This document shows, piece after piece, positions 972-21,656 of a stretch of 39,725 nucleotides of DNA. Every line of letters begins with the position of its first letter. Within the stretch, counting starts at the first letter, position 1. Position numbers and translations under genes: made by a program. The notes beneath the pieces were generated by a model. The model saw only the letters and a list, made by a program, of their open reading frames with translations, was not told where the DNA came from and did no database searches. Source of the DNA: an uncultured Hyphomicrobiales bacterium (GTDB lineage Bacteria; Pseudomonadota; Alphaproteobacteria; Rhizobiales; Aestuariivirgaceae). The stretch lies in NCBI GenBank assembly GCA_902826365.1, contig CADEEO010000006.1:1-39725 (forward strand), given 5' to 3'.

Positions 972-3233
972 CTAGTGCTTGCGGTTGCTGATCGCCTTGA
1001 GCACGCGGGGCGGCGACATCGGGATATGCGTCATACGGACGCCAACGGCGTTCGACATGGCATTGGCAATGGCCGCTAAGGGAGGCACGATGGAGGTTTC
1101 GCCAACGCCGCGCACACCATAGGGGTGGTTGGGGTTGGGAATTTCCAGGATCATCGTATCGATGAAGGGCAGGTCCGAGCAGACCGGGATGCGGTAATCG
1201 AGGAAGCCCGCGTTCTGCAGGCGGCCGTCCTTGCCGTAGATATATTCTTCGTTCAGCGCCCAGCCGATGCCCTGGGCGGCGCCGCCCTGGTACTGGCCTT
1301 CCACGTAGCTGGGATGAATGGCTTTGCCCGCATCCTGGATCACGGTGTAGCGCTTGACGGTGGAGCGGCCCGTTTCCGGGTCGACCTCGATATCGCAGAT
1401 ATGCGTGGCGAAGGAAACGCCGGCGCCATCGGCCACCAGTTCATTGTGGCCGGCAATCGGCCCGCCGGTGTTGCCGGCGGCGGCGGCGATTTCCTTGATG
1501 GAGAGCGGCGGGAAATTGCCGGCGTTGGTTCCGGCAGGCTTGGCGTGGCCATCTTCCCAGACAACGGCATCTTCCGGAATGTCCCACATCTTTGCGGCCC
1601 GCGCGCACAGCACCTTGATGCAGTTGCGGGCGGCGGCGATGGTGGCCATGCCGGTTGAGAAGGTGCCGCGGCTGCCGTCGGTCATGTCGTTGTGGCCGAG
1701 CGACGAGGTATCGGCGATCACCACGCGGACGTTTTCGTAAGCGAGGCCCAACTCTTCCGCGGCCATGAGGCCGATGGAAGCGCGGGAGCCGCCCACGTCG
1801 ATGGTGCCCACGGCAACGGTCACGGTGCCATCGGGCGTCACGTTGATATCGCAGCAGGTCTGGCCGCCGAAATTGAACCAGAAGCCGCAGGCCATGCCGC
1901 GTCCCTGGTTCTTTCCGAGCGGCGCTTTCATGTGCGCATGGTTCTTCGCCGCTTCGAGCGTGGCGCCAATGCCGATGGGGCCATAGACCGGGCCATAGGA
2001 GCTTTGGGTGCCCTGCTTGGCGGCATTCTTGATGCGGAGTTCAACCGCATCCATGCCGATCTTCTTGGCCAATTCATCAATGGCGCTTTCAACGGCGAAG
2101 GCGGCCATGGGAGCCGACGGCGCACGGTAGGCGGCCGTCTTCGGGCGGTTGACGATGACCTCGATGCTTTCGCTTTTGACGTTCTTGAGATCATAGCAGG
2201 CGAAGGCCGTCATGGCGCCGAACTCGGCCCAGGTGGCGGGGAAAGCGCCGCCATGATAGCGGAGCACGCCATGGGCGGCAGTGATGGTGCCATCCTTCTT
2301 CGCACCGATTTTCATGTCGATGGAAGTTGAGCTTGTGGGACCTGAGCAGCGGAACACCTCGTCGCGAGTCATGGTGAGCTTCACCGGGCGGTTGGCCTTG
2401 CGCGACAGGGCAAGGGCCAATGGTTCGGTCCAGATGTGGGTCTTGCCGCCGAAGCCGCCGCCGATTTCAGACGCGGTGACGCGCAGCTTGGAAATATCCA
2501 TGCCGAGCAGGGCAGCGCACTGGTTGCGGTAAACGAAGTGGCCCTGGGTGCAGACCCAAAGCTCGCCCTGGCCATCGGGGCTGACGTTGGCCACGCAGGC
2601 ATGGGGTTCGATGTAGCCCTGGTGCGTCTGCTCGGTCTTGTAGGTGTGCTCGACGATAACGTCGGCATCCTTGAAGCCTTGCACGATGTCGCCGTGGCCG
2701 AAGCTGGCGCGCTTGTTGTTGTTGGAGGGCTTGGTTGGCGTTGGCTCAACGCCTTCGGTGAAGATGTCGTTGTGAATGACCGGAGCCGAGGGCTTCAGGG
2801 CTTCATCCACATCGGTGACGTGAGGCAGCATCTCATAATCGACCTGGATAAGTTTCAGCGCCTTGCGGGCGGTGGTTTGATCGATGGCGGCTACGGCTGC
2901 CACGGCGTGGCCGTCATAGAGAACCTTCTTGCGGGCCATGCAGTTTTCGAGGATGTCGCGCATGCCGCGGTCACCGGCGGTGAGATCGGGAAGATCGGCG
3001 CTGGTGATGATGGCTTTCACGCCGGCAAGCTTTTCGGCCTTCGAGGTGTCGATTTTCTTGATCTTGGCGTGGGCATGGGGCGAACGCAGCACGAGGGCTA
3101 TGAGCTGGCCCGGCGCGTTGTAGTCAGCGCCATATTTGGCGCGGCCGGTGACCTTGTCGACGCCATCGGGGCGCAGGGGCCTTGTGCCGACCTGCTTGAA
3201 TTTCTGGTTGGTGAAGTTTGTGTCGAGTGGCAT
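972..3233 (-). CDS. Xanthine dehydrogenase-family molybdopterin-binding (large) subunit
   Basis: The 753-residue catalytic subunit of a molybdenum hydroxylase (xanthine oxidase family). The N-terminal a/b-hammerhead domain covers about residues 20-135 and the MoCo-binding domains follow. GGGFGGK is at 258-264, AYRAPSAP at 368-375, and GVGE at 709-712 with Glu712 in the place of the catalytic base. The AYRAPSAP loop is neither the form I CO-dehydrogenase loop (AYxCSFR) nor the form II loop (AYRGAGR), so CO oxidation is unlikely. An aldehyde or N-heterocycle is more likely, but the substrate cannot be read. The ATG lies one base after the stop of the 2Fe-2S subunit gene. No signal peptide is present, so the enzyme is probably cytoplasmic. 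Confidence 0.93.
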   Translation of the reverse strand: MPLDTNFTNQKFKQVGTRPLRPDGVDKVTGRAKYGADYNAPGQLIALVLRSPHAHAKIKKIDTSKAEKLAGVKAIITSADLPDLTAGDRGMRDILENCMARKKVLYDGHAVAAVAAIDQTTARKALKLIQVDYEMLPHVTDVDEALKPSAPVIHNDIFTEGVEPTPTKPSNNNKRASFGHGDIVQGFKDADVIVEHTYKTEQTHQGYIEPHACVANVSPDGQGELWVCTQGHFVYRNQCAALLGMDISKLRVTASEIGGGFGGKTHIWTEPLALALSRKANRPVKLTMTRDEVFRCSGPTSSTSIDMKIGAKKDGTITAAHGVLRYHGGAFPATWAEFGAMTAFACYDLKNVKSESIEVIVNRPKTAAYRAPSAPMAAFAVESAIDELAKKIGMDAVELRIKNAAKQGTQSSYGPVYGPIGIGATLEAAKNHAHMKAPLGKNQGRGMACGFWFNFGGQTCCDINVTPDGTVTVAVGTIDVGGSRASIGLMAAEELGLAYENVRVVIADTSSLGHNDMTDGSRGTFSTGMATIAAARNCIKVLCARAAKMWDIPEDAVVWEDGHAKPAGTNAGNFPPLSIKEIAAAAGNTGGPIAGHNELVADGAGVSFATHICDIEVDPETGRSTVKRYTVIQDAGKAIHPSYVEGQYQGGAAQGIGWALNEEYIYGKDGRLQNAGFLDYRIPVCSDLPFIDTMILEIPNPNHPYGVRGVGETSIVPPLAAIANAMSNAVGVRMTHIPMSPPRVLKAISNRKH

Positions 3234-3234
3234 G

Positions 3235-3711
3235 TTAAGCTCCTCTCATTTCTTTTGCGGTGGCCTGAACGGCGCGGACAATTTTATCGTAGCCGGTGCA
3301 GCGGCAAAGATTGCCGGCAAGGCCAAAGCGGATTTCCTCTTCGGAAGGATCCGGGTTCTTGTCGAGCAGCGCCTTGGCCGCAATCAAAAAGCCCGGGGTG
3401 CAGATGCCGCATTGAAGGGCGGCATGGGAGATGAAGTTTTTCTGCAGGGGATGGAGCTGGTCGCCCTTGGCCATGCCTTCGATGGTTCCGACCTTGGCGC
3501 CATTCACTTCAGCGCCGAGCACGAGGCAGGAGCAGACGAGGCGGCCATTGATGGTGACGCTGCAGGCGCCGCAGTCACCGGTGCCGCAGCCTTCCTTGGC
3601 GCCGGTCATGCCCAAACGGTTGCGCAGCACGTCGAGCAGCGGCTCGTCGGCATTGCAGACGAACTCAACGGCATCCCCGTTAATGGTGGTTGATACGTGA
3701 ACGCCCGACAT
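3235..3711 (-). CDS. Molybdenum hydroxylase 2Fe-2S (small) subunit
   Basis: A 158-residue electron-transfer subunit with two [2Fe-2S] domains. The plant-ferredoxin-like N-terminal cluster uses Cys42, Cys47, Cys50 and Cys62 (or Cys60) in GCGTGDCGAC...C. The helical C-terminal cluster uses Cys101, Cys104, Cys136 and Cys138 (CGIC and CRCTGY). Length and motif spacing are normal for CoxS/XdhC-type subunits. Its ATG shares one base with the stop of the upstream FAD subunit gene (a TAATG junction), which indicates translational coupling. It passes electrons from the molybdenum site to the FAD subunit. Confidence 0.95.
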   Translation of the reverse strand: MSGVHVSTTINGDAVEFVCNADEPLLDVLRNRLGMTGAKEGCGTGDCGACSVTINGRLVCSCLVLGAEVNGAKVGTIEGMAKGDQLHPLQKNFISHAALQCGICTPGFLIAAKALLDKNPDPSEEEIRFGLAGNLCRCTGYDKIVRAVQATAKEMRGA

Positions 3712-4571
3712 TATTTTCCTCCTGCGCGCTTGTACGCGATTTCTGCGGCGCGGCGCGCGAGGACGCCTGCAACCTTGGTTCTGAATTCGATGGTGCCGCG
3801 CTTGTCATCAATGGGCTTGCAGGCGGCGGCGCAGGCGGCGGCGAGTTTTTCAAGTGCTGCCGCATCAAGCTTCGAGCCGATCAGGGCCTTTGCTGCTGCG
3901 GGCACGACGATGATCGTCGGCGCTACGGCGCCCAGAACAACGCGGGCATCCTTGACCGTGCCCTTGCCATCGAGCGTGAGATTGACGGCGGCGCTGACCA
4001 CGGCGATATCCATTTCGGTGCGCGGAATGAAGCGCAGATAGGCATCGCTGGAATTTGCCGGGCGCTTGGGCAGCAGAATGGCTTCGATAATTTCGCCCTT
4101 CTTGAGCGAGATGCGGCCCGGCGACACCGGAACCTGTTCAACCGGAATGGTGCGCTTGCCCTTGGGGCCGGAAATCACAACCTTGGCATTGGCGGCGATG
4201 AGGGCCGGCACGCCATCGGCGGCGGGCGAACCGTTGCAGAGATTGCCGACCATGGTGCAGCGGCCCTGCACCTGCTTGGAGCCGATGAGATTTGCCCCTT
4301 CGACAACGCCGGGCCAGGCTTTCACCAGGGCTGCGTTTTCACCGAGTTGCACGCCCGGTACGGCGGCACCGATCCTGAATCCTGTGGCGGATTTCGCGAT
4401 GTCAAAGACACCCTTGATGCGCTTGATATCGACGACAAGGTCAGGCTCCAGAAAGCCGCCTTTCATTTTGACCAGCAGGTCTGTTCCTCCCGCCAGAACA
4501 AAGGCCAGGCCCTTTTCCTTGGCCAGCAGTGTTACCGCCGATTTAAGTGTTTCCGGTGCTTCGTATCGCAT
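3711..4571 (-). CDS. Molybdenum hydroxylase FAD-binding (medium) subunit
   Basis: A 286-residue CoxM/XdhB-type flavoprotein. The first FAD motif is VLAGGTDLL near residues 25-33, and the second is the MVGNLCNGSPAAD segment near residues 106-118, where the family usually has TIGGN. A C-terminal CO-dehydrogenase flavoprotein domain follows. The ATG has a good ribosome binding site (AGGTGA, four bases before the start). It is the first gene of the FAD, Fe-S, Mo and MoaD-like order. A 107-base gap separates it from the DeoR gene upstream on the same strand. That gap holds a TTGACC hexamer (minus strand, 4629-4624) that might be part of a promoter, but I see no convincing -10. Confidence 0.93.
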   Translation of the reverse strand: MRYEAPETLKSAVTLLAKEKGLAFVLAGGTDLLVKMKGGFLEPDLVVDIKRIKGVFDIAKSATGFRIGAAVPGVQLGENAALVKAWPGVVEGANLIGSKQVQGRCTMVGNLCNGSPAADGVPALIAANAKVVISGPKGKRTIPVEQVPVSPGRISLKKGEIIEAILLPKRPANSSDAYLRFIPRTEMDIAVVSAAVNLTLDGKGTVKDARVVLGAVAPTIIVVPAAAKALIGSKLDAAALEKLAAACAAACKPIDDKRGTIEFRTKVAGVLARRAAEIAYKRAGGK

Positions 4572-4678: not shown

Positions 4679-5449
4679 TCAGCGCGCCACAACATTCACG
4701 CTGACACCTGCCTCCTGCAGCACGGAAGCGAGCTTAGCATCGGGAATGCCATCGGTAATGAGGCGATTGATGTCCTTGAAGTCGCAGACCTTGATCAGAG
4801 CGATGCGGCCGAATTTCGAGGCATCCGACAGCATCACGCGCGTTTCGCCGCGCGACAGCACCATGCGGGCAAACTCGGCCTCGTCGAGATAGCTGTCGGA
4901 GGGACCGAAGTCCGCATCCAGCGCGCCGATTGAGATGATCGCGTGGCGGACATGGAAGCTTGCGGCAAAGGCGATGGCGGAGGGGCCAAAGGCCGCGCCA
5001 TTGGAGCCATTCAACTCGCCGCCCGCCATATAAACCCGGTTGCCGTTCACGGTGGCGAGCGTCCGGGCGATGTCGGACGAGTTGGTGACGACGGTGAGAT
5101 TGCGTTTTTTCAAGAGTTCGCGGGCAAAAATGCTGGTGGTGGTGCCGGTATCGAGCATCAGGCTGTCGCCATCCTCGATCAGCCTTGCGGCGCGGCGGGC
5201 AATGGCGCGCTTGGCGGCGAAATGTTCGCGGAGCCGCCGCTCGAATGGCGCTTCGCCCAATTCATGGGGGAGAGCAATGGAGCCGTGACGCCGTGAGACC
5301 TCGCGGGAGTCGACCAGAGGCTTGATATCGCGGCGGACCGTTTCAAAGGACACATCCAGAGCCTTGGCCAAATCGGCGACGGAACAGGTTCCCTGCTCGC
5401 GGACAAGGCTGAGAATCTGGGTTTGGCGCTTGCTGAGTCCGGTGGCCAT
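4679..5449 (-). CDS. DeoR/GlpR-family transcriptional regulator
   Basis: A 256-residue repressor-type protein. The N-terminal winged helix-turn-helix (SVADLAKALDVSFETVRRDI) is followed by the DeoR sensor domain, with DTGTTT, a VVTNSSDIA strand and the late LSDASKFGR motif. Family sensor domains usually bind phosphorylated sugars or similar phosphate esters. I chose the ATG at 5449; a TTG 36 bases further upstream would add 12 residues and overlap the putative operator. It lies between two oppositely oriented operons, the molybdenum hydroxylase genes (same strand, downstream) and the kinase/GcvT genes (divergent), and is the obvious local regulator of one or both. Its ligand is unknown; a phosphorylated product of the kinases is an inference. 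Confidence 0.9.
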   Translation of the reverse strand: MATGLSKRQTQILSLVREQGTCSVADLAKALDVSFETVRRDIKPLVDSREVSRRHGSIALPHELGEAPFERRLREHFAAKRAIARRAARLIEDGDSLMLDTGTTTSIFARELLKKRNLTVVTNSSDIARTLATVNGNRVYMAGGELNGSNGAAFGPSAIAFAASFHVRHAIISIGALDADFGPSDSYLDEAEFARMVLSRGETRVMLSDASKFGRIALIKVCDFKDINRLITDGIPDAKLASVLQEAGVSVNVVAR

Positions 5450-5466
5450 GAGTGATTTTTGATCAC

Positions 5467-5542
5467 ATTTTGTGGTTTTTGGCAATTGTCATTATATTTC
5501 GGTCAAAAAGCCACAAAATTTATGCGAGATTACCACATAAAA
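5467..5542. promoter_or_regulatory. Putative DeoR operator: TTTTGTGG inverted repeat
   Basis: In the divergent gap between the DeoR gene and the first kinase, ATTTTGTGG at 5467-5475 is exactly reverse-complemented by CCACAAAAT at 5511-5519. Both arms continue into a T5G / CA5 run, with one base of offset. A third, weaker half-site (CCACATAAAA) is at 5533-5542. Arm centres are about 44 bases apart, roughly four helical turns. The surrounding DNA is much more AT-rich than the neighbouring genes. Position and symmetry fit an autoregulated divergent operator; binding itself is inferred. Confidence 0.55.
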
Positions 5543-5603
5543 CAACATTACAGTTGACCTCCGGGCTTCAAAAGGCTTCATTTCAGGGAAGGGAGAAGGC
5601 CAC

Positions 5604-6485
5604 ATGCCTGCAGAAGACAGGGTTCGGGGACTGCCATGCTGGACTGGGGCCATCGAGGTGGTTCCGCTAAAAGGGGGCGTGAGCAACACCAGTTTCACGG
5701 TTCAGGACCGCGCCGGCAAATTTGTGGCCCGGGTCGGCGAGGATTATCCCTTCCATCATGTGTTCCGCGAGGCGGAAGTGATCGCCAGCCAGGCCGCCTT
5801 TGAGGCGGGGCTGTCGCCGGAGGTTGTCTATACGGAGCCCGGCATCATGGTGGTGCGCTTTATTGAAGCGCGCACCTATGCGGAGGCCGATGTGCGGGCA
5901 AATACCGATGCTTGCGTCGACATCGTGAAGCGCTGCCACCGGGAAATGGGCAAGCGCATTTCAGGCCGCGCCAATATTTTCTGGGTGTTCCATGTGCTGC
6001 GCGATTATGCGCACACCATCACGGCGGCGAAGCATCGCCATGTTCCCGACATTCCGCGCTGGATGGCGGAAGTTGAGCGGCTCGAAAAGGCGCAGGTGCC
6101 GCTGCCGATTATTTTCGGCCATCACGATTTGCTGCCGACAAATTTCATGGATGACGGAAAACGGCTGTGGCTGATCGACTGGGAGTATGGCGGATTCGGC
6201 ACGGCGATGTTCGATCTTGCCAATATCGCTTCCAACAACCAGTTCACAGAGCAAGCAGAGAAGGATTTGCTGACGCGTTATTTTGAGCGCGCGCCCGATG
6301 GAGCTTTGCTGCGTTCATTCTACGCCATGAAAACCGCCAGCGCTTTGCGCGAAGCCGTGTGGGGCATGGTTTCGGAAATCCATCTCAATGCGCCGGGCGT
6401 GGACTACGTGGCCTATGCCCGAGAATATCTCGGACGCTATGAAAATATGCTGGAAGATTTTAATGCAAAGTTTGGAAAGACATGA
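5604..6485 (+). CDS. Choline kinase/APH-family phosphotransferase (first copy)
   Basis: A 293-residue protein-kinase-like small-molecule phosphotransferase. A glycine-rich nucleotide loop (GGVSNTSF, 24-31) comes first. The Brenner motif HxDxxxxN follows with His173, Asp175 and Asn180 (GHHDLLPTN), then the metal-binding DWEY at 192-195. The family phosphorylates choline, ethanolamine, aminoglycosides or similar amino alcohols; this substrate is unknown. It overlaps the next gene by four bases (ATGA) and opens the plus-strand operon right after the DeoR operator. Its close linkage to two dimethylglycine/sarcosine-dehydrogenase-like enzymes argues for catabolism of an N-methylated compound rather than for LPS decoration or drug resistance. 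Confidence 0.85.
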   Translation: MPAEDRVRGLPCWTGAIEVVPLKGGVSNTSFTVQDRAGKFVARVGEDYPFHHVFREAEVIASQAAFEAGLSPEVVYTEPGIMVVRFIEARTYAEADVRANTDACVDIVKRCHREMGKRISGRANIFWVFHVLRDYAHTITAAKHRHVPDIPRWMAEVERLEKAQVPLPIIFGHHDLLPTNFMDDGKRLWLIDWEYGGFGTAMFDLANIASNNQFTEQAEKDLLTRYFERAPDGALLRSFYAMKTASALREAVWGMVSEIHLNAPGVDYVAYAREYLGRYENMLEDFNAKFGKT

Positions 6486-8929
6486 CCCAGAATTTTCCCA
6501 CTCATGCGGATGTCGTGGTTATCGGCGGCGGCATTATCGGCTGCTCGACGGCGTATCATTTGGCGAAGGACCACAAGCTGAATGTGGTCCTGCTTGAGCA
6601 GAACAAACTCACATCGGGATCAACGTGGCATGCGGCGGGGCTGGTGGGGCAGTTGCGTTCATCGGCTTCGATCACGCAGGTGCTGAAATATTCGGTGGAG
6701 CTATACAAGAATCTCGATGCGGAAACGGGCCTTGCGACGGGCTGGAAAATGACGGGCTGCCTGCGGCTGGCAAACAATGAGAACCGCTGGATTGAATACA
6801 AGCGGCTGGCGACCACGGCGCAGAGCTTCGGCATGGAAATGCATCTGCTGACGCCCGCCGAAGCGAAGAAGATGTGGCCGCTGCTGAACATCGATGATCT
6901 TGTCGGCGCTTCCTTCCTGCCGACGGATGGACAGGCTTCGCCTTCGGATATTGCGCAATCGCTGGCCAAGGGTGCGCGCATGCATGGCGCGAAGCTGATC
7001 GAGGGCGCGCGGGTGACGTCGTTTGGCATCAAGGATGGCCGTGTCACCGCGGTGAACACCAATCAAGGCAAGATTATTTGCGAGAAGGTGGTGAACTGTG
7101 GCGGGCAATGGGCGCGGCAGATCGGGGCCATGGCAGGGGTGAGCGTGCCCTTGCAACCGGTGAAGCACCAATATGTGATCACCGAAAAGGTGGCGGGCCT
7201 TGCGGCTGATGCGGCTACCATCCGCGATCCGGACCGGCGCACTTATTTCAAGGAGGAAGTCGGTGGTCTGGTGTTTGGCGGCTATGAGCCGGACCCCATT
7301 GCCTGGACGCAAGGCGACGTTCCCGACAATTTCGAGTTCCAATTGTTTGAAGATGACTGGGATCATTTCGAGCAGCACATGAACGAGGCTCTGGTACGCG
7401 TGCCGGCTTTGGAAAACACCGGCATCAAGAAAATAATTCACGGGCCGGAAAGCTTCACGCCCGACGGCAATTTCATTCTGGGTGCGGCGCCGGAGCTCAA
7501 GAATTTTTATGTCGGCGCAGGCTTCAATGCCTTTGGGATTGCCTCTGGCGGCGGGGCAGGCTGGGTGTTGGCGGACTGGGTTGCGCGGGATGAAGCGCCG
7601 ATGGATTTATGGGTAGTCGATATCCGCCGCTTCTCCGATCTGCACAAGGACCGCACCTGGACTTCCGAGCGCACGCTTGAAGCTTACGGCAAGCACTACA
7701 CCATTGGTTTCCCGCATGAGGAATATCAGTCGGGGCGGCCGCGCATCGTGTCGCCGCTCTATGACCGGCTGAAGAAACTCAACGCCTGCTTTGGCTCAAA
7801 GCTGGGCTGGGAGCGGCCCAACTGGTTTGCGCCTGCTGGCGAAGAGCCCCGAGATATCTATACCATGGGCCGGCAGAACTGGTTTGCGGCGGTGGGCGAG
7901 GAGCACAAATGCGTGCGCGAACGCGTCGGTGTGTTCGATCAATCGTCCTTTGCCAAGTATGAACTGCGCGGGAAAGACGCGGAGGAGGCGCTGGGCTGGA
8001 TTTGCGCAAACAACTTGGCGAGACCGGTAGGCAAGCTCACCTATACGCAGATGCTGAATTCTCGGGGCGGCATCGAATGCGACCTGACGGTGGCGCGGCT
8101 GGCGGAGGATCATTTCTATATCGTGACGGGCACAGGCTTCCGGACCCATGACTTTGCCTGGATCGTGGATCACCTCAGGCCGGGGCTTGAGGCGAAGCTG
8201 ACGGACATCACCGAACAGTACGGAACGCTTTCGGTGATGGGGCCGAAGTCGCGGGAGGTGATTCAAGCTGTAACAAAAGCTGACATGTCGAACGCCGCTT
8301 TCAAATTCGGCGAGGTGCGGCAAATTGAGATTGCTGGCCATGGGGTGCGGGCGCTGCGCGTGACCTATGTGGGCGAGTTGGGCTGGGAACTGCACATGCC
8401 CATTGCGGCCACGGGCGAGGTGTTCGACGCCTTGATGGCGGCGGGCAAGCCGCACGGCATTGCGCCTGTCGGCTACCGGGCGCTGGAATCGCTGCGGCTT
8501 GAGAAGGGCTACCGGGCGTGGAGTTCGGACATCACGCCCAATGACACGCCGCTTCATGCGGGGCTTGGCTGGGCGGTGAAGATGAAAAGCAATCAGGTAT
8601 TTTTGGGCCGCGAGGCGATTGAAAAAATCGGGCAAGCGCCGCTCACCAAAATGCTAGCGGGTTTCACCACGGAGCGCGAAGACATTGTGCTTTCGGGGCG
8701 GGAAACCATCCTGCGCAATGGCGCGTTCGCCGGTTATCTCACCAGCGGCGGCTATGGCTACACGATCGGGAAACCGGTGGGCTTTGGATATGTGCGGAAT
8801 GCTGATGGCGTTGATGAGGCCTATCTCGAAGCGGGCCGTTACGAGCTTGTAGTGGCCAAGGAAATCGTCAAGGCAAACATACACTTGCAGCCAATATATG
8901 ACAGTTTGAATCAACGCGTGAAGTCATGA
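6482..8929 (+). CDS. GcvT-family FAD-dependent dehydrogenase (dimethylglycine/sarcosine dehydrogenase-like), copy 1
   Basis: An 815-residue two-part enzyme. The N-terminal DAO-type FAD domain has the dinucleotide motif VVVIGGGIIG at 11-20 and GSTWHAAGL, where His50 aligns with the histidine that covalently carries FAD in dimethylglycine and sarcosine dehydrogenases. A short linker domain spans about 385-430. A folate-binding GcvT N- and C-terminal pair fills the rest (YVGELGWELHMP, then ALESLRLEKGYRAW and the HAGLGWAVK segment). Family members oxidise an N-methyl group and pass the C1 unit to tetrahydrofolate, or release formaldehyde without it. It starts four bases inside the kinase gene and ends overlapping its paralogue by four bases. 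The substrate is unknown. Confidence 0.9.
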   Translation: MTQNFPTHADVVVIGGGIIGCSTAYHLAKDHKLNVVLLEQNKLTSGSTWHAAGLVGQLRSSASITQVLKYSVELYKNLDAETGLATGWKMTGCLRLANNENRWIEYKRLATTAQSFGMEMHLLTPAEAKKMWPLLNIDDLVGASFLPTDGQASPSDIAQSLAKGARMHGAKLIEGARVTSFGIKDGRVTAVNTNQGKIICEKVVNCGGQWARQIGAMAGVSVPLQPVKHQYVITEKVAGLAADAATIRDPDRRTYFKEEVGGLVFGGYEPDPIAWTQGDVPDNFEFQLFEDDWDHFEQHMNEALVRVPALENTGIKKIIHGPESFTPDGNFILGAAPELKNFYVGAGFNAFGIASGGGAGWVLADWVARDEAPMDLWVVDIRRFSDLHKDRTWTSERTLEAYGKHYTIGFPHEEYQSGRPRIVSPLYDRLKKLNACFGSKLGWERPNWFAPAGEEPRDIYTMGRQNWFAAVGEEHKCVRERVGVFDQSSFAKYELRGKDAEEALGWICANNLARPVGKLTYTQMLNSRGGIECDLTVARLAEDHFYIVTGTGFRTHDFAWIVDHLRPGLEAKLTDITEQYGTLSVMGPKSREVIQAVTKADMSNAAFKFGEVRQIEIAGHGVRALRVTYVGELGWELHMPIAATGEVFDALMAAGKPHGIAPVGYRALESLRLEKGYRAWSSDITPNDTPLHAGLGWAVKMKSNQVFLGREAIEKIGQAPLTKMLAGFTTEREDIVLSGRETILRNGAFAGYLTSGGYGYTIGKPVGFGYVRNADGVDEAYLEAGRYELVVAKEIVKANIHLQPIYDSLNQRVKS

Positions 8930-11337
8930 ACTGGGACCGTAAAGTCCGTATACTGATTATTGGCGGCGGAGCCATCGGCACGTCGCTGGCCTATCACCTG
9001 GGGCGGGACGGGGCGAAGGATGTTCTGCTCGTCGAAAAGGCCCAACTCACTGAGGGCTGCACCTGGCATGCGGCGGGGCTTGTGGGCCAGCTGCGCGGCA
9101 AGAAAAACCTGACGCGATTGATGCAGAATTCCGTGGCGGTGTTCGACCGGCTGGAAGCGGAAACGGGGCAAGTGATTTCATGGAAGAAAGTGGGGTCGCT
9201 TCGGCTTGCCTCGAGTGCGGCGCGGTGGAGCGAAATCCAGAGGTCCATGGGGCAAGCCAAGAGTTTTGGGGTGGAGTGCCAGTCGCTGTCGGCGGCGGAG
9301 GCCAAAAAGCTTTTCCCCTATATCACCACCGATGGCATTGAGGGTGCGGCCTATATTCCGGGCGATGGCTACATCGATCCCTATTCGCTGACCATGGCCT
9401 ATGCCAAGGGGGCGAGGGCCCAAGGTGTGAAGATCGAGGAGCGGGTCTGCGTCGAGGAGATCGCGCTTGGGGGGAGGCGGGCGCTAGGGGTCGTTACCAA
9501 CAGGGGCAATATAGCTTGTGATATTCTGGTGAACTGCGCCGGGCTCTGGGCCAAGCGGGTGGGTAATATGGCTGGTGTTGCGCTGGCCGCTGGAATTGTC
9601 GAGCACCAGTATTTTCTGACGGAGAAAACCCTGTCGTTTGATGCGGGACTCACGACGCTGCGCGATCCGGACAAGAATTTCTACCTCAAGCCCGACACGG
9701 GTTCCTTTGCCATAGGCGGCTGGGAGGAGGGCTCACGCGGATTCCATCGAGGCTTGCCGCCGCTGGATTTTGGCCGGGAGCTTTTTGCAGCCAACATGGA
9801 GCGGCTGGAACTTTTTGCGCTGCCCGCTTCCGAGCGACTGCCGGTGCTAAACGAGACAGGCATCCAGACGGTTATCAACGGGCCCATTCCGGTTTCGGCA
9901 GATGGCGAGCCGATCATGGGGCTGGCGCCGGAGCTTGATAATTTCTATGTGGCCTGCGGCTTCACGGCGGGCATTGCAGCATCTGGCGGAGCGGGGCTTG
10001 CAATGGCCAACATGATCTTGCATGGCGACGCGGGCATGGACCTCTGGCCCTTCGATGTCAGGCGCTTCAGCGGGGTTCATGCACAGCCGCGCTACCTGGA
10101 GACGCGGGCCATTGAAGCCTATGCGGCCTACTACAAGGTGCATTGGCCGCTTGAGGAAACCCAGTCCGGGCGCGATTTGCGGCTTTCGCCTCTGCATTTG
10201 ACACTGAAGAATGCCGGGGCGGTGTTTGGTTCGCGGGCGGGCTGGGAGCGGCCCAACTGGTTTGCGCCAACGGGAATTAAACCGGTTGATGTTCCTTCCT
10301 TTGAAGACAAACCGAACTGGTTTTCTCACGTGGCCGAGGAATGCCGCGCCATCCGTGAGCGCGCCGTGCTGATCGACCAGACGTCATTTGCGAAGTTTGA
10401 GATTTCGGGAGCGGGAAGCGAGGCGGCGCTGCAGCGGATTGCGGCCAATGACCTTTCAGGCCCGCCTGGGAAGGCGGTTTACACGCAGCTCTGTAATGAG
10501 AAGGGCGGCATTGAGGCGGATGTGACGTTGGTTCATGTGGGCCCAGATCATTTCTATCTCATTACCGGTTCAGGCTTTGGGGTGCGCGACAGTGGCTGGA
10601 TGGCGAGGCATCTGCCGCCAACGGTTGAGATCCGCGATGTCACGAACGCGCTGGCGGTGATCAATATCTGCGGGCCACGTTCGCGGGAAATCCTGCAAGC
10701 GGTGACGGATGCGGATATTTCCAATGCGGCGTTTCCTTTCTTTGGGGCGCGGCGGATTGATGTGGGCCAAGCTAATGTGCTTGCAGTGCGCGTCGGCTAT
10801 GTGGGCGAGCTTGGCTACGAGCTTTACATTCCGCAGGAATTTGGCGCCCATGTCTATGACACGCTGTGGGTGGCGGGCGCGGCCCATGGCATTGCCAATG
10901 CGGGCTACCGGGCCATTGACAGTTGCCGCATGGAGAAGGGCTATCTCTACTGGTCCGGCGATATCTCGCCCGACTACAATCCGTATGAGGCTGGCCTTGG
11001 CTTCTGTGTCGCTTTGGATAAGGGCGACTTTATCGGCCGTGAGGCGCTCGCAAAGATCAAGGCCGCTGGCCTGACGCGGAAGCTCTGTTCCTTCACCATT
11101 GATGGTTTTGCACCGTTGCACGGCGGCGAGACCATTCTGCATGGCGGGAAAGTTGCGGGTTCAACCACGAGCGTTGGCTATGGCCACACTTCGGCCAAGA
11201 CCATCGCGCTCGGCTATCTTCCCATGGAGATTGCCGATCAGAAGGACTTCGTCATCGAAGCATTTGGTAAAGCCCACAAGGCCAAACGGGGGCCACGCTG
11301 CCTTTACGACGCGAAGATGGAAAGGCTGAAAGCGTGA
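8926..11337 (+). CDS. GcvT-family FAD-dependent dehydrogenase, copy 2
   Basis: An 803-residue paralogue of the preceding enzyme with the same layout: Rossmann motif IIGGGAIGTS at 11-20, GCTWHAAGL with His48 at the covalent-FAD position, linker, then GcvT domains (YVGELGYELYIP, DSCRMEKGYLYW, and the EAGLGFCVAL segment). The two copies align over their full length but differ in many pocket-region residues, for example GDGYIDPYSL here against TDGQASPSDI. This suggests successive steps on related substrates rather than redundancy. The ATG overlaps the upstream stop (ATGA), so the two are translationally coupled. A 95-base gap follows before the second kinase. Predicted cytoplasmic; the electron acceptor is not evident. 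Confidence 0.9.
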   Translation: MNWDRKVRILIIGGGAIGTSLAYHLGRDGAKDVLLVEKAQLTEGCTWHAAGLVGQLRGKKNLTRLMQNSVAVFDRLEAETGQVISWKKVGSLRLASSAARWSEIQRSMGQAKSFGVECQSLSAAEAKKLFPYITTDGIEGAAYIPGDGYIDPYSLTMAYAKGARAQGVKIEERVCVEEIALGGRRALGVVTNRGNIACDILVNCAGLWAKRVGNMAGVALAAGIVEHQYFLTEKTLSFDAGLTTLRDPDKNFYLKPDTGSFAIGGWEEGSRGFHRGLPPLDFGRELFAANMERLELFALPASERLPVLNETGIQTVINGPIPVSADGEPIMGLAPELDNFYVACGFTAGIAASGGAGLAMANMILHGDAGMDLWPFDVRRFSGVHAQPRYLETRAIEAYAAYYKVHWPLEETQSGRDLRLSPLHLTLKNAGAVFGSRAGWERPNWFAPTGIKPVDVPSFEDKPNWFSHVAEECRAIRERAVLIDQTSFAKFEISGAGSEAALQRIAANDLSGPPGKAVYTQLCNEKGGIEADVTLVHVGPDHFYLITGSGFGVRDSGWMARHLPPTVEIRDVTNALAVINICGPRSREILQAVTDADISNAAFPFFGARRIDVGQANVLAVRVGYVGELGYELYIPQEFGAHVYDTLWVAGAAHGIANAGYRAIDSCRMEKGYLYWSGDISPDYNPYEAGLGFCVALDKGDFIGREALAKIKAAGLTRKLCSFTIDGFAPLHGGETILHGGKVAGSTTSVGYGHTSAKTIALGYLPMEIADQKDFVIEAFGKAHKAKRGPRCLYDAKMERLKA

Positions 11338-11432
11338 GCCGCAAGCCTACCTTTTTGATCTTCATAATGTGATTCAGAAGACCTATATAAGCATCTGTTA
11401 TTCATAGGCTTTACCGAAAGGCGAAACGAGAG

Positions 11433-12365
11433 ATGGATGATCAGGGCATAGGCCTGGCGCGGGAAGCGCTGAAGCAGATTCAGCTCTTCTGGTGCCTTGA
11501 TGATACGCAGATCGAGGTCAAGCGGCTGGGAGGGCTGACCAACCTGGTGTTCTATGTCAGCCTTAACGGCGAGCAGTATGTGCTGCGCCTTCCGGGCAAG
11601 GGCACGGAGGAATATATCAATCGCCGGAACGAGGCTCAGGCGGCGCGGGAAGCGGCGAAAGCCGGGGTAAGCCCGGACGTGGTTCACTTCGATGAAAAGA
11701 CGGGGGTGATGGTGACCCGCTTTGTCGACCACGGCGTCACCATGTCGCCGGAGAATTTCAAATCCCGCAAGGGTTCACCTCAGCGGGCGGGAGAGGCGTT
11801 CAAGAAGCTCCATTCCTCCGGGGCCAAGTTCAATTTCCGCTTTGAGCTTTTTGCGATGATTGACGACTATCTCAAAATCCTGGCGACGAAGGATATCTCC
11901 TTGCCTGAGGGCTATGCGGAGGTGGTGAAGGAAGCCGAGTCGGTGCGGAAGGCGCTGAATGCCCATCCGCTGCCGCTGGTGGCCTGCCATTGCGATCCGC
12001 TGTGCGAGAATTTTCTCGATACGGGCAAGCGGATGTGGATTGTCGATTGGGAATATTCCGGGATGAATGACCCGCTGTGGGATCTGGGCGATCTGGCGGT
12101 TGAGGGGCAATTCAATACGGCGCAGGAAGAAGAGATGATTGCTGCTTATTTTGGCGGCGGGCCGACGCCAGCCGAGCGCGGACGCTTTGTGATTTACAAG
12201 GCGATGTGCGATTTGCTGTGGACGCTATGGGGCCTTATCCAGCATGCTAACAAGAATCCGGTGGATGATTTCTGGGCCTATTCGATCAACCGCTTTGAGC
12301 GCTGCAAGAAGCTGATGGCAACGGAAGCTTTCGGGAAACACGTGGCGGCAGTGAAGAAAGGCTAG
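11433..12365 (+). CDS. Choline kinase/LicA-like phosphotransferase (second copy)
   Basis: A 310-residue phosphotransferase, distinct from the kinase at the start of the operon but of the same fold. It has the nucleotide loop RLGGLTNLVF at 31-40, ACHCDPLCEN with His186, Asp188 and Asn193 as the Brenner triad, and VDWEYSG with Asp205. GGLTN followed by CHCDPLCENFL resembles choline kinase/LicA more than the first copy does. It is the last plus-strand gene of the cluster, 95 bases after the second dehydrogenase; the AT-rich gap could hold its own promoter. Two kinases bracketing two dehydrogenases is unusual. The phosphorylated substrate is unknown. Confidence 0.87.
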   Translation: MDDQGIGLAREALKQIQLFWCLDDTQIEVKRLGGLTNLVFYVSLNGEQYVLRLPGKGTEEYINRRNEAQAAREAAKAGVSPDVVHFDEKTGVMVTRFVDHGVTMSPENFKSRKGSPQRAGEAFKKLHSSGAKFNFRFELFAMIDDYLKILATKDISLPEGYAEVVKEAESVRKALNAHPLPLVACHCDPLCENFLDTGKRMWIVDWEYSGMNDPLWDLGDLAVEGQFNTAQEEEMIAAYFGGGPTPAERGRFVIYKAMCDLLWTLWGLIQHANKNPVDDFWAYSINRFERCKKLMATEAFGKHVAAVKKG

Positions 12366-13596: not shown

Positions 13597-14211
13597 CTAT
13601 TTCAAGACGCCGGAAGCCTTGGCGGCATGGGTCGCGAGATAATCCATAAGTGGCGGCGACAGGCAGTCATAGGGCTGCAGGCCAACCTTTTTCAGCTGCT
13701 TGCGGATGGCGGGCATGGCTTCGGGCTTGGTGCCGCTTTCAATGACGGACGAAACGAAAGCCGCGAATTCCGGCGGCGACCAGCCCTTTTCCTTGGACAG
13801 TTCCGTGTGGATGAAATCGAGGCCATAAAGGGCGTGCGAAGTGCGCTCGACGCGGCCATACATGTGAACGCCGCAGCCGGTGCAGGCGTGGCGCTGGATG
13901 AGCGCATTGGCATCAATGATCTTCAGCTTGTTTTCATTCGCCGTGACCTTCACATTGTCGCGGCCGACGACGGCGACGACGGAGAAGATGGCTCCTGCAG
14001 GCTTCCAGCATTTGGTGCAGCCGCAGGCATGGTTATGGGCGGTTTGCGCGCCAACGCTTACCGTCACGGGATCGGTCGCGCATTTGCAGGTCAGAGTGCC
14101 GCCGGCAAATTTCGCCTTGGCCTTGCCCTTCACACCCTTGTCAATGGCGGGGTGAAGGGAAATTCCTTTCGGTTTTTTTGCGGCGGCTTTGGCTTTGGCT
14201 TTCTTGGCCAT
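13597..14211 (-). CDS. gfa: S-(hydroxymethyl)glutathione synthase (glutathione-dependent formaldehyde-activating enzyme)
   Basis: A 204-residue zinc protein of the GFA/CENP-V fold that promotes addition of glutathione to formaldehyde, giving the substrate of class III ADH. Metal ligands stand out: Cys42/Cys44 (CKC), Cys63/Cys65/Cys68 (CGCTKC), and Cys110/Cys113 (CTGC). The start is fixed by AGGGAGGA five bases before ATG. That start gives a lysine/alanine-rich extension ([16 protein letters not shown]) in front of the usual ISLHPAID opening, which is odd for a cytosolic Gfa. It lies 25 bases behind the dehydrogenase gene of the same pathway. Formaldehyde from the nearby demethylating enzymes would be the logical substrate. 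Confidence 0.92.
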
Positions 14212-14236: not shown

Positions 14237-15346
14237 CTAGAACACGACAACGCTGCGGATCGACTTGCCTTCATGCATGAGATCGAAAGCGGAGTTGATT
14301 TTCTCCAGCGGCAGGATGTGGGTGATCATGGGGTCAATCTCGATCTTGCCGTTCATGTACCAATCCACGATCTTCGGCACATCGGTGCGGCCGCGGGCGC
14401 CGCCAAAAGCGGTGCCGCGCCAGGATCTGCCGGTGACCAGCTGGAAGGGCCTTGTTGAAATTTCCTGGCCGGCGCCGGCCACGCCGATGATGATTGACTG
14501 GCCCCAGCCCTTGTGGGCGGCCTCGAGGGCAACGCGCATGACCTTCACATTGCCGATGCATTCGAAGGTGTAGTCCGCGCCGCCATTGGTGAGGCCCACG
14601 AGATGGGCGACAAGATCGCCTTCAACCTTGGAAGGGTTGACGAAATGCGTCATGCCGAAGCGCTTGCCCCAGCTGGCGCGTTCTTCGTTGAGGTCGACGC
14701 CAATGATCTGGCTGGCGCCGGCAAGGCGCAGGCCCTGGATCACGTTGAGGCCAATTCCGCCGAGGCCGAAGACGATTGCCGTTGAGCCGATCTCGACCTT
14801 GGCCGTGTTGATGACGGCGCCGACGCCAGTGGTGACGCCGCAGCCGATGTAGCAAATTTTGTCAAAGGGCGCGTCTTTCCGCACCTTGGCCAGGGCGATT
14901 TCAGGAAGCACCGTGTAATTCGAGAAGGTGGAGCAGCCCATGTAGTGGTGCACCATCTTGCCCTTGTAGGAAAAGCGCGAGGTGCCATCGGGCATGAGGC
15001 CCTTGCCCTGGGTCATACGGATTTTCTGGCACAGGTTGGTTTTGGGGTTGAGGCAATATTCACATTCGCGGCATTCCGGGGTGTAAAGCGGAATGACATG
15101 GTCGCCCTTGGCAAGCGAGGTGACACCCTTGCCGACCTCCACCACGACGCCCGCGCCTTCATGGCCCATGATGGCGGGAAACAGGCCTTCGGGATCGGCG
15201 CCGGAAATGGTGAATTCATCGGTATGGCAAATGCCGGTGGCCTTGATTTCAACCATAACCTCGCCCTCCTGGGGCCCGGCCAGATCAACTTCAACAATTT
15301 CAAGGGGTTTGCCCGCTTCAAAGGCAATGGCGGCACGCGATTTCAT
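14237..15346 (-). CDS. frmA: S-(hydroxymethyl)glutathione dehydrogenase / class III alcohol dehydrogenase
   Basis: A 369-residue zinc alcohol dehydrogenase of class III (glutathione-dependent formaldehyde dehydrogenase). Catalytic zinc ligands are Cys40 (GICHTDEF), His62 (GHEGAG) and Cys169 (CGVTTG). Structural zinc is held by Cys92, Cys95, Cys98 and Cys106. The NAD-binding GLGGIG is at 194-199, followed by VDLN, whose acidic residue favours NAD over NADP. Length is normal. It oxidises S-hydroxymethylglutathione to S-formylglutathione. No S-formylglutathione hydrolase is adjacent; the alpha/beta hydrolase at 17487-18095 is of a different type. It is the first gene of the minus-strand run with gfa. 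Confidence 0.95.
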
Positions 15347-19517: not shown

Positions 19518-21566
19518 TTAAGATAGCCCGATCACTTCCCTGCGATAGGGCAGGTCGAGGAAGTCGGAGAGCGGCGAGCCGAATTCCTCAGCAAATTTGC
19601 GGCCCGCATGGACGGCGGCGGCTATGGTTCCGGGGCTGAAACAGTCGCCAATGCGGGCCAGATTATTTATTTTTCCCACGGAAGATTGAAAGAGCTGGTC
19701 TTTGACGTTTCTGGCGGTGACCAGAACGATGGAACTTGCCTCCAGTTCGCGGGTGCGGCCGGTGAAAACGCAGCCGAGCGTCACATGGTCTGCAGCAATT
19801 TCCTGAGCGGCTGAATTTTCTTCAATTTTAACATTGAGCTCCAGCAACTTGGCCTGGATGGCGTGTTGCTCCAGGGAGTTCTTGGTGAAAGAGGAGACAA
19901 GGGAAGACGGGGTGACCAAGGTCACCGAGTAATCTTCCTTGCGCAGAAGTTCGGCGATTACACCGCCCATGTAATAGTGGTCGTCATCATAGATGACGAG
20001 GTTTTTGTTCTTGGGCCTTTTGCCATCGAGGATGTCATCGGGCGTCAAGACGTCGGTGGCCCCATCCATCGGGATGGGCCTTGTATGATGGCGGGCGACG
20101 CCATCGCGCCGCCAGCATGAACCGGTGGCCATGACAATATGGTCGGCGCCAAATTCTGCCAGGGTTTCGGGGTTCATCTCGCTTTCGAGATATAATTCGA
20201 CATTGGGTAATTTGTTAATCTGAAGCAGGCGCCAATCGCGCACCCGGCCCCAGGCGGCAAGGCCGGGAAGCCGGCATTCCAGCGCCACCCGGCCGCCCGC
20301 CTCGCTTCGCGCATCGGCAAGGGTGACCTTGTGGCCGCGGTGCCCGAGGGCGCGGGCAGCTTCAAGGCCTGCGGGGCCTGCGCCCACAACAAGGATGCTC
20401 TTTACGCTTCCGGCGGGGCTGATGCGTTCGGGGTGCCAGCCGCGCCGCCATTCCTCTCCCATGGTGGGGTTCTGGGTGCAGCGGATGGGCGACATGGTGA
20501 AGTCGCCGGTCACACAGATATTGCAGCCAATGCATTCGCGGATATCATCTAACCGGCCCTCCTCAATCTTCTTGGGCAGGAAGGGATCGGCAATGGAGGG
20601 GCGGGCGGCACCGATCATGTCCATGATGCCTTGTTTAATTACCCGCACCATGGTGTCGGGCGAGGTATAGCGGCCCACGCCGACGACAGGTTTGGTGGTA
20701 AGCTTCTTCACGCCCTTGATGTAGGGCTCCTGGAAGCCTTCCTCGGAGAAGCGCGAGGTTTGCGAATCCTTTTCCCAGCTTGAGAGCGACAGGTCCCAGA
20801 GATCCGGCAGTTCCGCCATCAGGCCGATGGCATCCTCCACCTCGGCGGGTTCGAGGCCGTTAGGCCCGAGAAATTCATTCATGGCAATGCGGACGGGAAC
20901 GGCACAGCGGTCGCCCACCGCTTCCTTGGTGTCCTCGATCACTTCGCGGAGCAGGCGGGCGCGATTTGCAAGGGAGCCGCCATATTCATCGCTCCGCATA
21001 TTGGTGGCGCGCGACAGGAACTGCTGGAAAATGCCAAGGCCGTGCCCGGCATAGACATAGACGAGATCATAGCCGGCGGAGCGGGAACGCAATGCGGCGG
21101 CGCGGTGGGCGCGGCGCAGGTTTTTAATGTCCTCCTTGTCCATGGCGCGGGCTTGGATCGGGCTGTTGAAGGAACTGGAAGTTGGCATGGCGGTGGGCGC
21201 CATGGGAATTTCACGCGACCAGAGGTTTGATGAGGTGTAGCCGGAGTGACAAAGCTCAATTCCTGCCAACGAACCATGCTCATGGATTTTTTCGGCGATG
21301 CGGGTGTGCATGGGAATGTCATGATCGCTCCAGATGCGAAGTTCCACATAGGGCGTCACATCGGCGGTTTGGTGAATCTCGGTCATTTCGGTGCAAACCA
21401 CAGCCCAGCCGCCTTCGGCCTTCATGCCGCGCATGGCGGCAAGTGCTGAAGGATCACGCCAGCCCATGCCGTTGCAGTGGGGGACCTGATAGAAGCGGTT
21501 GCGCGCCGTAACGGGACCGATTTTCACGGGTTCAAACAGAATATCGTATCGGGCGTCTCGGGCCAT
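19518..21566 (-). CDS. Trimethylamine/dimethylamine dehydrogenase-like iron-sulfur flavoprotein
   Basis: A 682-residue multidomain oxidoreductase. The N-terminal FMN TIM barrel (old-yellow-enzyme fold) carries Cys31 in QVPHCNGMG, the place of the 6-S-cysteinyl-FMN cysteine (Cys30 after Met removal), and YAGH in the active site. The [4Fe-4S] motif CIGCNIC..C precedes CTQNPTMGEEWRRGWHPER, a signature of trimethylamine and dimethylamine dehydrogenases. Two C-terminal Rossmann regions follow (VVGAGPAGLEAARAL). The ATG at 21566 has AAAGGGAA upstream and is preferred over a TTG five codons earlier. Position 60 is Met, against Tyr in TMADH and Gln in DMADH by my recollection, so the amine substrate is uncertain. 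The product would include formaldehyde. Confidence 0.88.
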   Translation of the reverse strand: MARDARYDILFEPVKIGPVTARNRFYQVPHCNGMGWRDPSALAAMRGMKAEGGWAVVCTEMTEIHQTADVTPYVELRIWSDHDIPMHTRIAEKIHEHGSLAGIELCHSGYTSSNLWSREIPMAPTAMPTSSSFNSPIQARAMDKEDIKNLRRAHRAAALRSRSAGYDLVYVYAGHGLGIFQQFLSRATNMRSDEYGGSLANRARLLREVIEDTKEAVGDRCAVPVRIAMNEFLGPNGLEPAEVEDAIGLMAELPDLWDLSLSSWEKDSQTSRFSEEGFQEPYIKGVKKLTTKPVVGVGRYTSPDTMVRVIKQGIMDMIGAARPSIADPFLPKKIEEGRLDDIRECIGCNICVTGDFTMSPIRCTQNPTMGEEWRRGWHPERISPAGSVKSILVVGAGPAGLEAARALGHRGHKVTLADARSEAGGRVALECRLPGLAAWGRVRDWRLLQINKLPNVELYLESEMNPETLAEFGADHIVMATGSCWRRDGVARHHTRPIPMDGATDVLTPDDILDGKRPKNKNLVIYDDDHYYMGGVIAELLRKEDYSVTLVTPSSLVSSFTKNSLEQHAIQAKLLELNVKIEENSAAQEIAADHVTLGCVFTGRTRELEASSIVLVTARNVKDQLFQSSVGKINNLARIGDCFSPGTIAAAVHAGRKFAEEFGSPLSDFLDLPYRREVIGLS

Positions 21567-21656
21567 TGGGTTCCCTTTCAACAGGCCTTTGATTTCTAAC
21601 AGCCTTTGGGCATAAGAACCAATACAGGCGGCGGATTCCCCCGGTTTTGCGACAGA

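Follow-up and report, generated by a model that had tools for sequence, protein, structure and literature searches.

In the anaerobe Eubacterium limosum, choline is phosphorylated by the kinase MthK and then demethylated by MthB to dimethylaminoethanol phosphate, and the authors of that study argued that the added phosphate serves as an acidic handle, the enzyme family being one whose members bind carboxylated amines (PMC12155760). The locus described here resembles the MthK-MthB-MthC-MthA system of E. limosum in that, likewise, a LicA-type kinase would form a phosphate ester that would be demethylated, its methyl group passing to tetrahydrofolate (THF). The E. limosum system relies on a cobalamin-dependent methyltransferase of the MttB family acting on quaternary phosphocholine, whereas FAD/THF enzymes of the dimethylglycine dehydrogenase (DMGDH) type are encoded here, and neither MttB nor a corrinoid protein is found by Pfam among the operon genes, which sets the operon apart from MthK/MthB systems. 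The acidic-handle logic would apply to DMGDH-type enzymes too. A search of the open-access full-text literature (preprints excluded) returned no FAD/folate enzyme demethylating a phosphorylated amino alcohol and no paper on the operon. The first-pass annotation of this DNA had known of no characterised pathway in which amino-alcohol phosphorylation is paired with two such dehydrogenase steps; MthK/MthB is a characterised precedent for phosphorylation before demethylation (PMC12155760), though one using a cobalamin methyltransferase.

The operon lies in a window of 39,725 nucleotides (the whole stretch of DNA that was analysed), whose source, an alphaproteobacterium, is close to Aestuariivirga, the proteins of locus L019 being 91-99% identical and in the same order. 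Its features are collected in Table 1.

Table 1. Features of the kinase-demethylase operon and its surroundings (positions in the window)
Feature	Position	Strand	Description	Basis
Molybdenum hydroxylase	972..4571	-	three subunits (large, 2Fe-2S, FAD), beyond the DeoR gene	Pfam
DeoR/GlpR-type regulator	4679..5485	-	divergent from K1	Pfam DeoRC 5e-45 and HTH_DeoR
DeoR/K1 divergent intergenic region	5486..5603	.	presumed regulatory region	
K1 kinase	5604..6485	+	choline-kinase-like phosphotransferase, modified amine cage	Pfam and cage alignment
D1	6482..8929	+	DMGDH-like FAD/THF N-demethylase	Pfam; DMGDH E 1e-162
D2	8926..11337	+	second DMGDH-like FAD/THF N-demethylase	Pfam; DMGDH E 1e-152
K2 kinase	11433..12365	+	choline-kinase-like phosphotransferase, full LicA-type cage	3DXQ E 4e-139; LicA 4R77 E 1e-40
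Gfa	13597..14211	-	S-(hydroxymethyl)glutathione synthase	NCBIfam TIGR02820, over cut-off
AdhC	14237..15346	-	S-(hydroxymethyl)glutathione dehydrogenase	NCBIfam TIGR02818, over cut-off

The four reading frames are found exactly where the first-pass annotation had placed a kinase-demethylase-demethylase-kinase gene set, and their Pfam domains are complete: Choline_kinase and APH are matched above cut-off by each kinase, and DAO, FAO_M, GCV_T and GCV_T_C by each demethylase, in the domain order of DMGDH/DMGO. The 4-base ATGA joins reported among the first three genes are likewise seen, the K1 stop overlapping the D1 start at 6482-6485 and the D1 stop overlapping the D2 start at 8926-8929; from the D2 stop to the K2 start there is a gap of 95 bp (11338-11432) with no overlap. 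A VOC-family gene, absent from the window, sits between D2 and K2 in L019 and L022, and L019 15731-17030 holds this gene plus extra sequence in place of the 95 bp. Which codon starts the DeoR gene is uncertain, TTG at 5485 and an ATG within the frame both being candidates, and a purine-rich AGGGAGAAGG precedes the K1 ATG in the intergenic region. Long frames in L136, L137 and L145 had hinted that K1 and D1 might be fused there; this was rejected, the extra part, devoid of any K1 match, being upstream out-of-frame sequence.

The association of these kinases with these demethylases is not due to chance. The first-pass annotation had made its proposal depend on a neighbourhood conserved in relatives, and such conservation is what is found. 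A genome scan with K1 gave 80 loci, and more came from plasmid records; counting only loci with at least 38% K1 identity, in a sample gathered via K1 and leaning heavily on Mesorhizobium, D1 immediately adjoins K1 in 99 of 106 and DeoR genes occur in 86. The remaining seven are without an adjacent D1, five of them having downstream room for it. K1 adjoins D1 in 116/122 D1-core proteins, a set gathered mostly via the K1 query, and K2 adjoins D2 in 15 of the 16 D2 orthologues. In an even sample of the class (289 genomes), D1 orthologues, taken at no less than 54% identity, are carried by 20 genomes from 15 families; among D1 carriers are two genomes of 1.4 Mb, in both of which the K1-D1 pair is retained. 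K2 is encoded in 12 genomes of the class sample, namely 10 of the 20 with D1 and 2 of the 269 others (Fisher 1e-11, a number that is merely indicative, related genomes not being independent).

K1-D1 and D2-K2 are two separable kinase-demethylase modules, occurring together or apart. The joined order K1-D1-D2-K2 is found in the window, in R. rosettiformans, in Ciceribacter (L104), in the genome G001 (L149) and in two M. qingshengii loci, so that the four-gene unit conceived in the first-pass annotation does recur in full, in Rhizobium, Ciceribacter and Mesorhizobium among others, yet is not fixed. In Ruegeria, Salipiger and Rhodobacteraceae M382, D2-K2 forms a separate operon that has a DeoR gene to itself, and three genomes belonging to a single family have TmoX-like ABC genes, DeoR, D2 and K2 consecutively on one strand. 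In Mesorhizobium, Shinella and the genome G159, K2 is not beside D2 and is divergent to a SAM methyltransferase gene. The latter, opposite K2, encodes a small class I SAM-dependent methyltransferase of about 210 aa (L018 16774-18401, L069 13330-14972, L164 7188-8900 and the majority of the K2 loci of Mesorhizobium). The Mesorhizobium gene that separates D1 from K2 was considered as an additional pathway enzyme; it is SAM methyltransferase-like and on the opposite strand, and the idea was discarded.

D1 and D2 share with DMGDH and DMGO (4P9S, 5L46, 1PJ5) the domain plan, the covalent-FAD His, His225/Tyr259 and the folate domain. Both keep that His in a TWHAAGL motif, and both have complete folate domains with Asp552 kept, as had been read in the first-pass annotation; the covalent-FAD His, His225/Tyr259 and Asp552 (DMGO numbering) are invariant in 138 relatives (122 D1 and 16 D2). 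The differences from DMGDH/DMGO lie in the kinase partner gene, in the separate tree clades and at one position of the active site, that of MSOX Lys348. In MSOX this Lys is a carboxylate ligand; DMGDH and DMGO have a His there, whose role may be similar by comparison with MSOX, whereas D1 has Ser, Ala or Gly and D2 has Ala, so that by this residue neither would be a strict dimethylglycine dehydrogenase. The K1-, K2- and phosphonate-linked groups retain the Arg59 and Lys89 of D1 (His/His in rat DMGDH, Asn/Asn in DMGO); Arg59, a candidate anion residue placed by sequence only, is also common in relatives with neither a kinase nor a phosphonate link.

In a FastTree tree of 91 sequences all K1-linked D1 group in a single clade (local support 0.996); three further members of it had no K1 found, and the contig of one ends there. 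D2 forms a separate clade (0.999), also containing two Rieske-linked members, and neither D1 nor D2 belongs to the clade in which rat DMGDH lies together with the other DMGDH-like proteins of the window genome (L003-L005). The D1 clade has as its sister (0.993) a clade comprising nine members near PhnW/PhnA/PhnY genes (L103, L183, L184, L190, L195, L205-L208), a tenth directly after a PbfA gene (L193), and others without a phn or PbfA neighbour. Those with such a neighbour are GcvT-fused and DMGDH-like, 48-51% identical to D1 and often accompanied by a DeoR gene; no kinase neighbour was found for the D1 sisters in aminoethylphosphonate clusters, and in none of the fetched K1-D1 loci does PhnW/PhnA/PhnY or PbfA lie beside the demethylase. 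Aminoethylphosphonate being a near-isostere of phosphoethanolamine, this sister context points independently to aminoethyl-phosphorus substrates.

PbfC/PbfD are FAD amine oxidoreductases that oxidise N-methyl-aminoethylphosphonate to phosphonoacetaldehyde and methylamine (PMC10590968), and likewise give an N-methylated aminoethyl-phosphorus compound entry to catabolism. The D1-like proteins of the phn clusters are predicted to be N-methyl-aminoethylphosphonate demethylases distinct from them; unlike PbfC/PbfD, they carry a GcvT domain and should pass the methyl group to folate. On a plasmid of Aminobacter niigataensis MD1 (L102 7569-16662), genes for a Rieske oxygenase, a reductase, a D2-like protein, DeoR, a dihydrofolate-reductase-family protein and a D1-like protein are clustered, an arrangement that looks like one for the stepwise removal of three N-methyl groups.

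The two kinases differ in their pockets when the choline-binding residues of LicA (PMC4364537) are taken as reference. K2 has those of a LicA-type choline kinase: it aligns all cage and catalytic residues with LicA (4R77) and M. loti 3DXQ, and Thr29, Asp176, Asn181, Asp194 and Glu196, together with the cage residues Tyr197, Glu213, Trp251, Trp254 and Tyr268 (LicA numbering), are invariant in 88 K2 sequences, Val178 being Leu or Met. K1 belongs to the same family and, across 111 D1-linked sequences, keeps the catalytic Asp/Asn/Asp as well as Tyr197, Trp254 and Tyr268, but its cage departs from that of LicA, with Glu for Trp251 in all 111 and Asn for Glu213 in 106 (same numbering). In reading this cage, a pairwise alignment that pairs the K1 Trp with Trp251 was set aside in favour of the multiple alignment, in which the WG motif is matched. 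With an acid inside it, the cage would be better fitted to an ammonium bearing fewer methyl groups. LicA serves cell-wall phosphorylcholine, whereas the setting of K1 and K2 looks catabolic.

As for neighbouring genes in relatives, a TmoX-like binding protein (4XZ6, E 1e-71), mostly 64-85% identical across distant carriers, is encoded in 17 K1 loci; TmoX itself binds a methylated amine oxide. EutH, over the NCBIfam cut-off, directly follows D1 on the same strand in Nitratireductor and G159 (L010, L140). A case in point for the demethylation step is Salipiger, where ETF, FolD and PurU lie behind D1, as expected for a folate-linked demethylase; ETF genes also flank D1 in the two 1.4-Mb genomes (L134/L135), on the side away from K1 and in the same orientation, and one of the two has ABC genes at the opposite end of the pair, beyond K1. 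Genes of the IMPase family (phosphatase-type) lie near D1 in L011, L012 and L150. Within the window itself no importer gene is recognised beside the operon. Gfa and AdhC also adjoin the operon in the window's nearest relatives, L019 and L022, and the presence of Gfa possibly reflects formaldehyde scavenging; the molybdenum hydroxylase is retained near K1-D1 in 8 loci of related MAGs. Further along the window (19518-21581) lies a gene for a FadH/old-yellow-enzyme-type oxidoreductase, whose top NCBIfam match, a mycofactocin-system OYE, is below cut-off.

Ethanolamine ammonia-lyase as a general downstream step was rejected for want of association with D1: EutB is not enriched with D1 in the class sample (2/20 D1 genomes), and the window genome (94% complete) yielded neither EutB nor PbfA. 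An iron-containing alcohol dehydrogenase (FeADH) is more frequent in D1 genomes (18/20) than in the others (63/269), and the gene at G000:C159:1129-2262 (L176) encodes an enzyme of this kind, whose orthologue is the enriched one; in other genomes it has GS-like, aldehyde dehydrogenase and PbfA genes for company. A route through FeADH, GS-like and aldehyde dehydrogenase enzymes is a lead only, because elsewhere these genes are also neighbours of PbfA and phn genes.

The reading favoured here, to which an even chance is given, is that of a catabolic operon for N-methylated ethanolamines, with phosphorylation before demethylation and two kinase-demethylase modules. An imported amino alcohol would be O-phosphorylated first, K1 taking the less substituted amine and K2 the di- or trimethylated one; the resulting zwitterionic phosphate ester would resemble dimethylglycine and be oxidised by the FAD enzyme, D2 acting on the N,N-dimethyl and D1 on the N-methyl form. 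The methyl group would leave as methylene-tetrahydrofolate and the electrons would go to ETF, with phosphoethanolamine remaining. The phosphorylated compound would lift repression by DeoR, a phosphate ester, which the first-pass annotation had also proposed as the signal, being a plausible ligand in view of the DeoRC domain. The choice of methylated ethanolamines comes from the TmoX-like importers and EutH, the cage of K2 set against the swaps in K1, the phosphonate sister clade and the IMPase-type neighbours; the lack of EutB enrichment, K2 beside a methyltransferase in Mesorhizobium, Shinella and G159, the five K1 loci without D1, the spread of Arg59 and the lack of a recognised importer gene beside the operon in the window speak against the model. 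The first-pass annotation had likewise proposed that an amino alcohol is phosphorylated and then demethylated, and this is still the best reading of the gene context, from which I infer the substrate and the order of steps.

The pathway might be the same and its substrate another N-methylated amino alcohol, such as choline via K2 or a lipid or osmolyte breakdown product, phosphorylated before demethylation. This is unlikely, yet deserves to be taken seriously, for the importers resemble TmoX, whose ligand is a methylated amine oxide, K2 has the full choline cage, and a GMC gene that is choline dehydrogenase-like by eye adjoins the cluster in L134; it sits poorly with EutH after D1 in L010 and L140. 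Moreover, DMGDH-type flavoenzymes require the lone pair of the amine, and the quaternary phosphocholine is therefore an unlikely direct substrate of D1 or D2.

The order of steps could also be reversed, D2 and D1 acting on free amines and the kinases phosphorylating the product (e.g. ethanolamine to phosphoethanolamine). Step order is not readable from gene context, and the acidic cage residue of K1 would go well with an ammonium that is primary or secondary; this order is nonetheless rather improbable, as the D1 sisters in aminoethylphosphonate clusters, none of which has a kinase neighbour, would use an amine already bearing phosphorus. There is only a small probability that kinases and demethylases are co-regulated and act on unrelated substrates, D1 and D2 being ordinary dimethylglycine/sarcosine-type dehydrogenases. 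Both do match DMGDH over nearly their full length with catalytic residues kept, but they lack the His that DMGDH/DMGO have where MSOX has Lys348 and group apart from rat DMGDH and L003-L005 in the tree, and there are two different kinase-demethylase pairings, each tightly conserved, with K2 co-occurring with D1.

To return to phosphorylation before demethylation, a broader proposal may be made tentatively, its chance being put somewhat below even: that of a widespread aerobic pathway of Alphaproteobacteria, from soil rhizobia to streamlined genomes of 1.4 Mb, in which methylethanolamines would be phosphorylated for folate-linked flavin demethylases, a sister group of which would demethylate N-methylated aminoethylphosphonates. 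Methylethanolamines are breakdown products of phospholipid head groups, and the operon, if the proposal is true, would offer a genetic handle on their aerobic breakdown and would explain two unnamed enzyme families of many rhizobia and marine bacteria. Phosphorylation as a handle for demethylation would then have arisen alongside two demethylase chemistries that are unrelated to each other, and the existence of a new phosphonate demethylase group would be predicted.
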